Under the pieces are notes generated by a model, which saw only the letters and a list, made by a program, of their open reading frames with translations, was not told where the DNA came from and made no database searches. Below are positions 240-4,262 of a DNA stretch of 25,673 bases, piece after piece; within the stretch, counting starts at the first letter, position 1, and every line of letters starts with the position of its first letter. Source of the DNA: a virus; IMG/VR virus record IMGVR_UViG_3300030390_001059, positions 1 through 25,673 of that record; one strand, given 5' to 3'. The position numbers and the translations under genes were made by a program.

Positions 240-253
240 GTTGTTTAAACAAC
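240..253. promoter_or_regulatory. 14-bp palindrome containing GTTTAAAC
   Basis: GTTGTTTAAACAAC is a perfect 14-bp palindrome 15 bases upstream of the ATG at 269. It is the first of the GTTTAAAC sites that crowd the first 4.3 kb. Its place just before the Shine-Dalgarno of the coiled-coil gene makes a regulatory role at DNA (operator) or RNA level plausible. Confidence 0.5.
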
Positions 254-268
254 AAATAAGGAAATAAC

Positions 269-862
269 ATGATAAGTTACAAAATAAGTGACAAAGAATT
301 TAAAAACATACAAAGGGTATATAAAGGTATTTTAGCTATGGCAATACAAGACGCTTTGTATGAACCTAATAGATTAAATAAAAAATATGAAAAACAATTT
401 CAAGAAAAAAGACAACAAAAAATAAATGAAAATGAGTTATCAGAAAAAAAATATCAACAAAAATTATTAACAGAAATTGAAAAAAAAGATAAAAAAGTTT
501 TTTTAGAAAAACAAAAATTTGAAAAAAGAAAATTAAACAAAAGTAAAAAACAAATTTTAAAAATAGAATCAAGACATAAATCTAATTTAGAAAAAATAAA
601 TAAAATTTTTACTAGAAAAGTTTTTCGTTTAAAGGCAACTTTTAATAATAAAAAAATTAAATTGCCTGTAAGACCACAAAACGAAATTGAGTTTAAACGA
701 GATGCTTTAAATTGGTTATATGGGATTGATAAAGATGATGTTTGGCTTTTAGATTTGTGTTGTGATATTAGTAATGTAACAAGAGAACAAGTTATAAATG
801 TTGTTGAAAATGCACATAAAAATAAAACGCTTGATAACATTGAAAATTTTTTTAAGGAATAA
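269..862 (+). CDS. Lysine-rich coiled-coil protein, unknown function
   Basis: A 197-aa protein. Residues 1-35 look like a small helical region (YKGILAMAIQDAL). Residues 36-120 are an extremely Lys/Glu/Gln-rich stretch expected to form one long helix or coiled coil. Residues 138-197 form a compact end (EFKRDALNWLYG...VWLLDLCCDISNVTREQVINVV). The last part recalls the small phage proteins with a W-L-x-G core followed by a helix at 'd..T.e.V', but I cannot name a family. A ribosome site (AAGG) precedes the ATG. The gene contains one in-frame GTTTAAAC at 691. Its AT content is even higher than that of later genes. A structural or nucleic-acid-binding role is possible but not shown. Confidence 0.75.
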   Translation: MISYKISDKEFKNIQRVYKGILAMAIQDALYEPNRLNKKYEKQFQEKRQQKINENELSEKKYQQKLLTEIEKKDKKVFLEKQKFEKRKLNKSKKQILKIESRHKSNLEKINKIFTRKVFRLKATFNNKKIKLPVRPQNEIEFKRDALNWLYGIDKDDVWLLDLCCDISNVTREQVINVVENAHKNKTLDNIENFFKE

Positions 863-865
863 ATT

Positions 866-1015
866 ATGACTGAAGAAACATTAGAACAATTATTTTTTAA
901 ATATGATGTGCCAACTGATATTAGTTTTTTGGCTAAAGTTCAAACATTACTATCTAAACATAATTGCAAATATGACAAAATTATTAAAATGTATAATGAA
1001 ATTAATGATAAGTAA
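866..1015 (+). CDS. Small unrecognised protein (49 aa)
   Basis: ATG at 866 follows AAGGAA (855-860) and starts three bases after the previous stop. It encodes a 49-aa acidic N-terminus with a basic helical C-terminus (SKHNCKYDKIIKMYNEINDK). It is probably co-transcribed with the coiled-coil gene. The last bases of the gene, including its stop codon, form the first half of a 31-bp repeat found again at 1834-1864. Function unknown; no motif recognised. Confidence 0.6.
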   Translation: MTEETLEQLFFKYDVPTDISFLAKVQTLLSKHNCKYDKIIKMYNEINDK

Positions 1016-1030
1016 TTTAAATCAATAAAA
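1000..1030 (+). repeat. 31-bp direct repeat, copy 1
   Basis: Identical over 31 bases to 1834-1864, with a 17-base core (ATAAGTAATTTAAATCA) recurring at 2658-2674. It overlaps the stop codon of the 49-aa gene. It lies a few bases upstream of a TTGACA box, so it may be an A/T-rich upstream promoter element or operator. Copy 2 sits at the same distance from a second TTGACA. Confidence 0.8.
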
Positions 1031-1033
1031 GTA

Positions 1034-1062
1034 TTGACAAGATAACTTAACAATGTTTTAAT
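1034..1062 (+). promoter_or_regulatory. Sigma70-type promoter
   Basis: A perfect -35 TTGACA (1034-1039) is followed after 17 bases by TTTAAT (1057-1062), one mismatch from TATAAT. It lies upstream of the 79-aa gene at 1106 and directly after repeat copy 1. This suggests early expression by host RNA polymerase. Confidence 0.65.
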
Positions 1063-1105
1063 GCTCGTGTAGTTAAGTTTTATTAACACTATAAGGAGAA
1101 CTAAA

Positions 1106-1345
1106 ATGTATGAAGACGAAAATAGTTATACATTTGGGAAGGAATTACCAAACTCAAATATGTTAGAGAAATATCAAGATGTATGTGAAATGCTTGGTAT
1201 GGATAGTGATTGTTCGCATAGAGAATTAATAGAAGAATTAGAATGGGCAGTAAAGTGTAGTCGTTTTGTTACATGGAAAGGAAATTATGACGAAGTAGAA
1301 GAGTCTTTCTGGAATATACCTAACAATTTAAAAAGGAGCGTTTAA
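1106..1345 (+). CDS. Small acidic protein, unknown function
   Basis: A 79-aa protein preceded by AAGGAG (1093-1098) with good spacing. It is acidic and has a helical middle (MLEKYQDVCEMLGM...HRELIEELEWAVKC) and two Trp near the C-terminus. The stop codon TAA lies inside a GTTTAAAC palindrome (1340-1347) that also serves as the spacer before the next start. It appears to form a two-gene operon with the 82-aa gene at 1348, driven by the promoter at 1034. I recognise no family. Such short acidic early proteins often act on host machinery, but this is only context. Confidence 0.7.
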   Translation: MYEDENSYTFGKELPNSNMLEKYQDVCEMLGMDSDCSHRELIEELEWAVKCSRFVTWKGNYDEVEESFWNIPNNLKRSV

Positions 1346-2796: not shown

Positions 2797-2961
2797 ATGA
2801 AAAAAACACTAACAACAGAGGCAAAGAATTTGTTGAATGAAGCTTTATATTTAAGGCTAGACCAAGACGGGACTAGCCCACAACAAAAGAAGCTTTTAAA
2901 TAGTCTTATAGAAGCAATGGGTCAAGGTTCAAATATAAACATTCAATGGATATGTAATTAA
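2797..2961 (+). CDS. Small unrecognised protein (54 aa)
   Basis: The ATG at 2797 follows AAAAAGGA with normal spacing. The 54-aa product (starts MKKTLTTEAKNLLNEALYL, ends NIQWICN) looks like two short helices joined by a QDGTSPQQ turn, about the size of a small helical regulator or inhibitor. It is followed by the SprT-like gene, and the two leaders are nearly identical (2775-2801 against 2964-2990), which suggests a shared origin and equal translation. Function unknown. Confidence 0.6.
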   Translation: MKKTLTTEAKNLLNEALYLRLDQDGTSPQQKKLLNSLIEAMGQGSNINIQWICN

Positions 2962-2985
2962 ACTAACTTTAAAAAGGATAACAAA

Positions 2986-3606
2986 ATGAATAACACAATA
3001 AACGGGATGAATAGAGAAACGTGGTTGAATCTTATGATTGACAAAGCCGTTCCAATATTTGACAAAGCGGGGTTTAAGATTTCAGATATTAGGAAAAAAT
3101 TAAAAGTATCTTGTTCCATGATGGTTGGACAAAGAAAATCATCAAAATTCGGTGCTATTGGTATGCACTTACCAACAGAATGGAATAAAGAAAAAAATCA
3201 TGAAATGTTAATCAGCCCAACATTAGAGGATGGAGTGCAAGTTGTTGCGATTCTTATTCATGAAATGACTCACGCTATACAACGACATATGTATGGATAT
3301 ACTGTAAAGGCTCATGGGAAAGAGTTTCGCAAAATAGCCCTTGCTGTTGGCTTACAAGGTAAAATGACAGCTACAACAGAAAGCCCAGAATTAAAAATTA
3401 TTATTGAAAATTGGATAAATGAAATTGGAAAATATCCACATGACAAAATCAATTTAAATGCTAGAAAAAAACAGGGCGTAAGAAACTTAAAAGTTAAATG
3501 TCAAAGTTGTGAATGGTCATTCAGAACTAGCAATAAAAATATATTAGCAATGACTTCAAGTAGATGTTTATCATGTGGTGATGATGAAGGCTTAATAGTA
3601 ATTTAA
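2986..3606 (+). CDS. SprT-like zinc metalloprotease
   Basis: A 206-aa protein. Residues 92-96 are HEMTH, the HExxH zinc site in a predicted helix (VVAILIHEMTHAIQ). A third ligand is likely His110 in AHGKEFRKIA, the order used by SprT/Spartan-type proteases. A C-terminal zinc ribbon follows, with Cys172/Cys175 (CQSC) and Cys194/Cys197 (CLSC). Family members act on DNA-bound or DNA-crosslinked proteins, and phages often carry short SprT-like genes whose targets are unknown. The catalytic Glu93 is present, so activity is expected. It shares its leader type with the 54-aa gene upstream and is followed by a hairpin terminator. The ATG at 2986 fits the AAAAAGGA site. Confidence 0.88.
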   Translation: MNNTINGMNRETWLNLMIDKAVPIFDKAGFKISDIRKKLKVSCSMMVGQRKSSKFGAIGMHLPTEWNKEKNHEMLISPTLEDGVQVVAILIHEMTHAIQRHMYGYTVKAHGKEFRKIALAVGLQGKMTATTESPELKIIIENWINEIGKYPHDKINLNARKKQGVRNLKVKCQSCEWSFRTSNKNILAMTSSRCLSCGDDEGLIVI

Positions 3607-3611
3607 TTAAT

Positions 3612-3637
3612 TAGGGAGTTTAAACGCTCCCTATTTT
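3612..3637 (+). terminator. Hairpin with TTTAAACG loop after SprT-like gene
   Basis: TAGGGAG (3612-3618) pairs with CTCCCTA (3627-3633) around TTTAAACG, followed by only four T. The stem sequence differs from that at 1779 (TAGAGGG) at two positions, both compensated. The short T-run would make it a partial terminator, letting some transcripts reach the 51-aa gene. Confidence 0.75.
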
Positions 3638-3653
3638 AAAAGGAGAATATAAA

Positions 3654-3809
3654 ATGGATGTATTAAAAAAAATTGAATTAAATAATCAACATGTAATCGA
3701 TAGCTTAAATGTAATGTGTGATGAGCGAATAAAAGAATTAGATGCAGATAGCCCCCATGGGGATTATGTTTATTATAGTTTTCAAGATTTAATTAATAGA
3801 GAAAAATAG
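3654..3809 (+). CDS. Small unrecognised protein (51 aa)
   Basis: ATG at 3654 with a strong AAAAGGAGA site (3638-3646). The 51-aa product has an amphipathic helix (VLKKIELNNQHVIDSLNVMCDERIKELD), a turn (ADSPHGDY) and a second helix (YYSFQDLINREK). The codon pattern is good and the gene fills the space between two terminators exactly, so it is likely real. I recognise no family. Confidence 0.65.
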   Translation: MDVLKKIELNNQHVIDSLNVMCDERIKELDADSPHGDYVYYSFQDLINREK

Positions 3810-3827
3810 ATAGTGTGCTAATTAAAT

Positions 3828-3853
3828 AAGCCCTTTTATTAGGGCTTTTTTTT
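3828..3853 (+). terminator. Intrinsic terminator of the early block
   Basis: AAGCCCT (3828-3834) and AGGGCTT (3841-3847) form a 7-bp stem with a TTTATT loop, followed by an uninterrupted T-run to 3853. This is the strongest terminator in the window. It separates the early genes from the packaging and structural genes. Confidence 0.88.
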
Positions 3854-4262
3854 GGTCTGTTTAAACGGTTTACACTTGAAAGCTAATTAAAAAAATAGTA
3901 TAATCAACCCTATTGAATACAAGCCTTCCCATTGACAATCTAAATTAACACCATTTACAAGCCCATAGTAAGCATTTAATTACTATTTAATAGGATATAT
4001 AACAAAAATATAGAACGGCTTAACATGGCTTTAAAACAATGCTTTACGAGGGTTTATGGTATATTAACGGTATTATAAAGGGCTTTAATGTATAAATAGC
4101 CATGAAGGTATCTACAAGGCTCACTGTAAAGACTTTGTATACTACATTGACCTTACCCCTCAATCAAAAATATAAGAGCTTAAACAGGCTTAAAACAAGC
4201 CCAAAGTTATCCACAGGATTAGATGAGTTATCCACAGACAAAATACAAGGCAGTTTAAACGC
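3854..4262. other. Non-coding region upstream of the terminase gene
   Basis: No credible ORF on either strand. It holds a GTTTAAAC (3859-3866), a weak promoter (TTGACA 3932-3937, TTACAA 3955-3960), a short hairpin (4187-4201, GGCTT/AAGCC), two DnaA-box-like sites (4207, 4228) and a last GTTTAAAC (4253-4260) just before the ATG. The stretch near 4107-4140 (TATCTACAAGGCT...CTGTAAAGACTTT) faintly resembles 2530-2636. It may carry the late promoter and an origin, but neither is proven. Confidence 0.45.
3932..3960 (+). promoter_or_regulatory. Weak promoter candidate for packaging genes
   Basis: TTGACA (3932-3937), spacer of 17, then TTACAA (3955-3960), which matches TATAAT poorly. It is the best promoter-like pair between the early terminator and the terminase small subunit gene. 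Confidence 0.35.

Follow-up and report, generated by a model that had tools for sequence, protein, structure and literature searches.

The DNA analysed here, called the window below, is a stretch of 25,673 nucleotides (positions 1 to 25,673) of the virus record IMGVR_UViG_3300030390_001059, and its first 4.3 kb are crowded with the palindromic octamer GTTTAAAC. When other phages and a plasmid were compared, the octamer or its one-base variant GTGTAAAC was found to accompany one gene of the same region, which encodes an SprT-like (Spartan-family) protein. What emerges from sequence comparison is that the octamer is enriched, that this enrichment depends strictly on the SprT family and on a C-terminal segment of this protein, and that sites are present at SprT promoters. 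Since the motif follows SprT proteins with an intact tail and is missing where the tail is lost, the SprT-like protein very probably reads GT(T/G)TAAAC. Within the literature collection searched, no description of the motif or of a link between the motif and SprT was found, and searches made with the motif sequences returned primers and one unrelated phage promoter only.

Enrichment of the palindrome in the phage genome

An initial annotation, made from the window alone, had listed 13 copies of GTTTAAAC and judged that chance should give far less than one in the first 4.3 kb. All 13 positions proved exact and a recount gave the same split as before, with 12 copies in the first 4.3 kb and one in the following 21 kb. 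Upon 100 dinucleotide shuffles of the window, the mean count was 0.98 and the maximum 5. An order-2 Markov model predicted 0.30 copies for the first 4.3 kb; the expectation is thus nowhere near 12 and the enrichment stands. As also annotated, seven of the 13 sites are part of a longer GTTTAAACGC on either of the two strands, and only those at 691 and 19812 lie within clear genes, the site at 1340 merely overlapping the stop codon of the open reading frame (ORF) 1106-1345.

The phage record is 35,080 bp long and its first bases recur at 35,002 (79-bp terminal overlap), so that it represents a complete circular assembly. Over this whole length, 20 copies were found for 1.6 expected by the same model (P ~1e-15), and among the palindromic octamers of the phage, GTTTAAAC has the strongest over-representation. 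Seven of these sites lie beyond the window, at 27190-34513; the cluster therefore extends past the left 4.3 kb and covers the entire non-structural half (from 27.2 kb across the origin to 4.3 kb), which holds 19 of the 20 sites, the structural half holding one.

In related phages, where the initial annotation had suggested looking, the motif is present as well. The closest named phage, Venkman EXVC282S of the OM43 methylotroph H5P1, carries 34 copies, several of which sit precisely between the Shine-Dalgarno sequence and the ATG, and the motif was also found in L028, L115 and L030. Further viral contigs were recruited by a scan seeded with AGGAGTTTAAACATGA. Unrelated phages obtained in this way (GC content 0.45-0.62) contain 49 copies in 64 kb, 26 in 61 kb, 26 in 49 kb and 13 in 17 kb, mostly within genes, and in each of them GTTTAAAC is the top over-represented palindromic octamer.

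Ten named relatives of both motif-rich phage groups, with Pelagibacter, Roseobacter, Caulobacter, Alcaligenes and others as hosts, have 0-2 sites each, and inheritance with the structural genes was rejected on this basis. Among about 460 bacterial genomes of one order, sampled around a Nitrosomonadales metagenome-assembled genome (MAG), none was strongly enriched, the host genome not being identified among them, and the GTTTAAAC counts were mostly below those of the reversed control. The motif therefore belongs neither to the structural genes nor to the sampled host chromosomes.

Association of the motif with the SprT gene

In a profile search, the SprT-like family alone was present in each of the nine motif-rich genomes in which the region is covered and absent from the six motif-poor relatives. 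The cognate regulator, for which the annotation had proposed to search and had named no candidate protein, thus appears to be encoded within the very region that it had flagged. No second family was widely common to the SprT-positive genomes, the next best being present in 14/45. Helicase-primase and Sak were discarded as linked genes, as they occur in motif-poor relatives too.

INPHARED yielded 163 named SprT-positive phages, among which GTTTAAAC or GTGTAAAC was then seen; the SprT-like proteins of Venkman and Powerpuff are gp1 and gp49, respectively. Over whole records, GTKTAAAC was found 41 times in Crosby, 35 in Venkman, 20 in Yang, 18 in IAmGroot, 17 in R5C, 14 in 4A, 7 in Mica and 4 in ep3. 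The variant GTGTAAAC is the form carried by SprT-positive actinophages, with 41 copies in 54 kb at ~69% GC. In 79 SprT-positive viral loci, 657 copies of GTTTAAAC were counted for 21.8 expected; when these were reduced to 35 non-redundant loci (GC 0.29-0.58), 320 were counted for 11.4 expected, a 28-fold excess over the order-2 Markov model. In the latter set GTTTAAAC alone stands out among the 256 palindromic octamers, the others being at about 1-2x, and its single-base variants reach 0.7-2x, except GTGTAAAC at 3.7x. The phage genome is AT-rich and the palindrome short, but in view of these ratios chance or base composition has practically no probability as an explanation.

The same dependence was observed among phages related through the portal gene. 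Four such relatives with SprT contain 39 GTTTAAAC copies for 1.8 expected, whereas those without SprT contain 39 for 22.6 expected, and 21 for 16.8 at a portal identity <80%. Furthermore, the Sphingobium plasmid pMI4, whose SprT protein carries the segment KKQKTR, has five copies of GTTTAAAC for 0.05 expected, plus one of GTGTAAAC; PLSDB contains 69 records with the protein. The IS6100-flanked lin cargo of pMI4 (L384, 22500-30600) is devoid of both sequences and the sites are spread over the remaining plasmid, as if the backbone only had adapted to the plasmid's SprT protein.

The C-terminal segment and the motif

All 14 named SprT-positive phages with a KKQ/KPQ/PKQ-x-TR segment have sites (range 4-42; 0-2 in the reversed control), whereas the five without the segment have 0, 0, 0, 0 and 1. 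Eden, MW2 and Epa5 are SprT-positive and motif-free; KKQxTRxLK is absent from the C-terminus of all three, and MW2 and Epa5 have lost the zinc-ribbon cysteines as well. When presence of the motif was predicted from the segment in eight further named phages, the six with the segment had 27, 22, 42, 16, 4 and 9 sites and the two without it had none. In a second set, of 16 viral loci, six with a visible tail but no segment had 0 sites, and seven of eight with the segment had 2-18. As the KKQ segment was among the patterns used in the search for SprT-positive viral loci, the role of the tail is tested without bias only by the named phages and by this second set.

In the phages G003 (L214-L216) and G006 (L217-L220), the HExxH protease motif is degenerate and the tail is kept; their SprT proteins are apparently non-proteolytic members of the family. 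With 26 and 49 sites, respectively, these phages indicate that the motif follows the tail and not catalysis. A 13-kb locus with KKQPTR, in which proline replaces S/G/T (L398), has no site, and its near relative with KKQTTR (L397) has two. Alternative or gapped motifs were sought for L317, L362 and the tail-less SprT phages, and nothing convincing was found.

Two side observations concern other over-represented sequences. In the G004 and G007 records (L221-L223 and L225-L227), ATTTAAAC and GGTTAAAC are about as over-represented as GTTTAAAC, which suggests that in this lineage the specificity is relaxed or has shifted. In the Pseudomonas phage Epa5 (L296), SprT-positive and without GTTTAAAC, CCCTGGGC occurs 40 times in 40 kb for 3.6 expected.

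The SprT-like protein of the window

The gene and its relevant parts are located as follows.

2986..3606, + strand: SprT-like (Spartan-family) protein of 206 amino acids, PF10263; proposed GTTTAAAC-binding protein
3259..3273, + strand: HEMTH at residues 92-96, an intact HExxH zinc-protease motif according to alignments
3466..3603, + strand: KKQGVR segment with the zinc ribbon at the C-terminus (residues 161-206), a proposed specificity element whose presence or absence predicts that of the motif across phages

The assignment to PF10263 passes the curated cut-off (E 5.8e-8, 33.0 bits for 25.6 required). The protein is made up of a metalloprotease-like domain (residues 10-150) and a C-terminal zinc ribbon (residues 167-206). 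The third histidine of the protease centre is H110 and, together with HExxH, is invariant across 38 aligned family members. An AlphaFold model of the protein had a mean pLDDT (predicted local distance difference test) of 90. Its best structure match was human SPRTN (6mdw, Z 9.2 over 106 residues, 3.7 Å, VIA comparison), and Wss1 (5xbn) was matched at Z 6.5. The tail resembled zinc ribbons of the rubredoxin or MCM type at Z ~4, a level that is often reached by chance. With Foldseek alone the model had no significant match, and a sequence search of the PDB gave weak SPRTN matches with a profile and none with the single sequence.

The phage protein therefore shares with the SPRTN, Wss1 and SprT metalloproteases of PF10263 the fold, HExxH with the third histidine, and a DNA-related C-terminal zinc module. 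It differs from SPRTN and Wss1 by the family's own conserved KKQxTR and ribbon tail, for which sequence-specific DNA recognition is predicted, and by the loss of the protease centre in some motif-keeping phages.

Placement of the sites

When 41 genomes and loci were pooled, the density of sites was 2.2 per kb in non-coding and 0.46 per kb in coding DNA, the latter being likewise far above chance. SprT promoters were identified by eye from consensus hexamers, and most named carriers have a site that adjoins or overlaps the core promoter of their SprT gene. A site abuts the -35 hexamer of the SprT promoter in Pan1, in L306 and in the window (2694), lies in the promoter spacer in Henoccus and Crosby, and is placed at or just after the -10 hexamer, the likely transcription start, in Mano, Mica, ep3, Yang and Powerpuff. 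In IAmGroot a site also abuts or overlaps core promoter elements of the SprT gene, and four right-end sites are in -35/-10 spacers. Sites were spaced more evenly than at random in Crosby, Yang and the G001 fragment; even spacing as a general rule was rejected, the 26 pooled loci being random (mean z 0.08).

The GTTTAAAC sites of the window, to which no strand is assigned, and the promoter-like element of the SprT gene are distributed as follows.

243..250: site 1, upstream of the ORF at 269
691..698: site 2, within the ORF 269-862
1340..1347: site 3, in the spacer between Shine-Dalgarno sequence and ATG of the ORF at 1348, overlapping the stop codon noted above
1785..1792: site 4, in the loop sequence of a terminator predicted at 1779-1800
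1821..1828: site 5, upstream of a sigma-70-like promoter (1866-1893, 11/12 matches)
1936..1943: site 6, in the gap between Shine-Dalgarno sequence and ATG of the ORF at 1944
2320..2327: site 7, in an inverted repeat ACAG-TTTAAACG-CTGT
2367..2374: site 8, in an inverted repeat ACAG-TTTAAACG-CTGT
2694..2701: site 9, separated by 1 nt from the downstream -35 hexamer of a predicted promoter directed towards the SprT gene
2703..2730, + strand: promoter-like TTGCAA-16-TAAAAT, upstream of the ORF at 2797 and of the SprT gene, homologous to the L306 promoter
3618..3625: site 10, in the loop of an inverted repeat directly after the SprT gene
3859..3866: site 11, 9 nt upstream of a sigma-70-like promoter (3876-3904, 11/12 matches)
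4253..4260: site 12, 2 nt before the start codon (ATG) of the gene for the terminase small subunit (4263-4751)
19812..19819: site 13, within the ORF 19777-20691, sole site of the structural region

The element at 2703-2730 is one of 25 promoter-like matches, for 26.7 expected by chance, and its support comes from the homologous position in L306. The inverted repeats at 2320, 2367 and 3618 resemble the predicted terminator that holds the site at 1785.

Proposed role of the SprT-like protein and alternative explanations

In the model that we prefer, the SprT-like protein would recognise GTTTAAAC, or GTGTAAAC in SprT-positive actinophages, by means of its C-terminal KKQxTR segment and zinc ribbon, and the many genomic copies would serve as its addresses. 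Bound beside its own core promoter, it would limit its own synthesis; bound at other promoters, at gene starts and along genes, it would repress or silence the element as a whole, in a stoperator-like manner but with a different protein fold. The conserved protease centre would possibly inactivate SprT itself or cleave neighbouring DNA-bound proteins. If SprT is taken as the reader, a repressor role is rather probable. To the complete model, with binding, autoregulation and element-wide repression, we assign a probability of about 0.52.

Several points weigh against this model. SPRTN-family proteins are known for proteolysis and are not known as sequence-specific repressors, and the actual binder is possibly a host factor recruited by SprT. 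Unlike classical operators, many sites are intragenic and on both strands. In the broad set, the excess of sites upstream of SprT is modest (12/41, 29%, for 161/1098, 15%, upstream of other genes; P 0.014), and pMI4 has no site upstream of its own SprT gene. L317, L362 and L398 have few or no sites in spite of an intact tail. In addition, the named phages are non-independent samples, and no integrase was seen in the annotation or in the scans made of Venkman, R5C and the window phage.

A different activity might be served by the same binding. As a guardian protease tethered at GTTTAAAC tags, SprT would cleave proteins stuck on the DNA of the element or attacking it, in the way of SPRTN or Wss1; crosslinked proteins, host silencers and defence complexes would be its targets, and placement at promoters would reflect autoregulation only. 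The invariant protease centre, the fold nearest to SPRTN and Wss1, the spread of sites within and between genes, in lytic as well as temperate phages and on a plasmid, and the even spacing in Crosby, Yang and the G001 fragment agree with this proposal. It is weakened by the degenerate HExxH of the site-rich G003 and G006, by the avoidance of the structural half in the window phage and Venkman, by the random spacing of the pooled loci and by the operator-like positions at promoters, and we regard it as rather unlikely. More speculative still is the notion that phage and plasmid Spartan-like proteases are the first sequence-addressed ones, the tail docking on GT(T/G)TAAAC tags so that proteolysis and promoter repression occur on self DNA only; the removal of hostile or crosslinked proteins would then be united with self-recognition and regulation.

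Explanations in which SprT is not the reader are less probable than either. An octameric palindrome that is also intragenic, in GC-rich phages, could be read by a host factor conserved across bacteria or mirror a host palindrome of the HIP1 kind, but none of the genomes sampled from the bacterial order is strongly enriched and structurally related phages without SprT have 0-2 sites; this is improbable, and the host-linked form of the idea was abandoned on the bacterial counts. A different phage regulator, with SprT merely linked, is a little less probable again: the phage does encode a 56-amino-acid P22_Cro-like protein (record positions 33,776-33,946) and Cro-type proteins bind palindromes, but no other family is common to the motif-rich genomes, the motif-free relative MW202481 has an annotated Cro as well, and the motif tracks residues inside SprT. 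Of the three options left by the initial annotation, namely sites of a DNA-binding protein, methylation and RNA pairing, only the first is retained. Methylation or restriction-modification would suit an octameric palindrome of strict specificity, and Venkman encodes a methyltransferase; neither a homologue of this enzyme nor a [DNS]PP[YFW] motif was found in the 61 predicted ORFs of the phage, and no methyltransferase family is common to motif-rich or SprT-positive genomes, which makes this reading very improbable. An RNA-level element, acting as ribosome-binding spacer or terminator loop, would fit the junctions of Shine-Dalgarno sequence, GTTTAAAC and ATG and the terminator loops of AT-rich members; it is largely refuted, since the sites of GC-rich members are mostly intragenic and the near-palindromic GTGTAAAC lies on both strands of co-directional genes.

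Comparison with known systems and phage lifestyle

The stoperators of cluster A mycobacteriophages, of which L5 has 24-30 bound by gp71, are the closest parallel to the proposed silencing. Dozens of copies of one short site occur genome-wide, near promoters and gene boundaries (20 here, 34 in Venkman, 41 in Crosby), and a phage-encoded DNA-binding protein is proposed to silence transcription. Unlike stoperators, which are asymmetric and in one orientation to transcription, GTTTAAAC is palindromic, and the near-palindromic GTGTAAAC lies on both strands; the sites are also intragenic. The associated protein is an SprT-like zinc-ribbon protein and not a helix-turn-helix repressor, and the system spans proteobacterial phages, actinophages and a plasmid, including phages in which no integrase was found. 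HIP1 of cyanobacteria, the highly iterated palindrome GCGATCGC, is likewise an octamer found in coding and non-coding DNA. GTTTAAAC differs from it in that it is not enriched in the tested bacterial genomes, comes with no methyltransferase found and is linked with a gene of phages or plasmids. Start-associated sequences have been described in cluster K mycobacteriophages and cluster EF Microbacterium phages (PMC7302621), and some GTTTAAAC sites are similarly right at the junction of Shine-Dalgarno sequence and ATG. In contrast to these, GTTTAAAC is palindromic, is not a ribosome-binding sequence and is also present in promoters, terminators and genes, most sites not being start-adjacent.

Powerpuff forms stable, homoimmune lysogens and has no identifiable repressor (PMC8758107). 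It contains 27 sites, and its SprT gene is ~0.8 kb from the serine integrase gene. The integrase-bearing Microbacterium phage Zeta1847 has an intact tail and 22 sites. The cluster EB phages Eden, Rollins and Dismas are lytic (PMC7302621) and lack both the tail segment and the motif. The SprT-like protein could thus be the repressor that has escaped identification in temperate cluster AZ/EH phages, for which it offers a concrete candidate. Because no integrase was seen in Venkman, R5C and the window phage, lysogenic immunity cannot be the general role; with these carriers and pMI4 considered together, immunity is at most one use of a more general element-wide system.

Through this association, a defined DNA sequence is linked with a large phage protein family that usually bears the annotation 'SprT-like protease' or 'transcription elongation protein', so that the function of the family becomes directly testable. 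If true, the proposal would account for the strange palindrome of marine OM43 phages and would mean that a Spartan-type fold can act as a sequence-specific DNA-binding protein. The scope of the finding far exceeds the window from which it originated.

Minor observations

Three phage records assigned to differing cyanobacterial hosts (OQ594354.1, GC 0.69, OL906435.1 and PP438419.1) have equal length (65,014 bp) and identical match scores, and may represent one phage, possibly with misassigned hosts. In a Neisseria MAG (L254) in which GTTTAAAC is not enriched genome-wide, three near-identical gene starts with AAAGGAGTTTAAACATGA were found within ~2 kb, at 5090, 6469 and 7163; these probably belong to paralogous genes.

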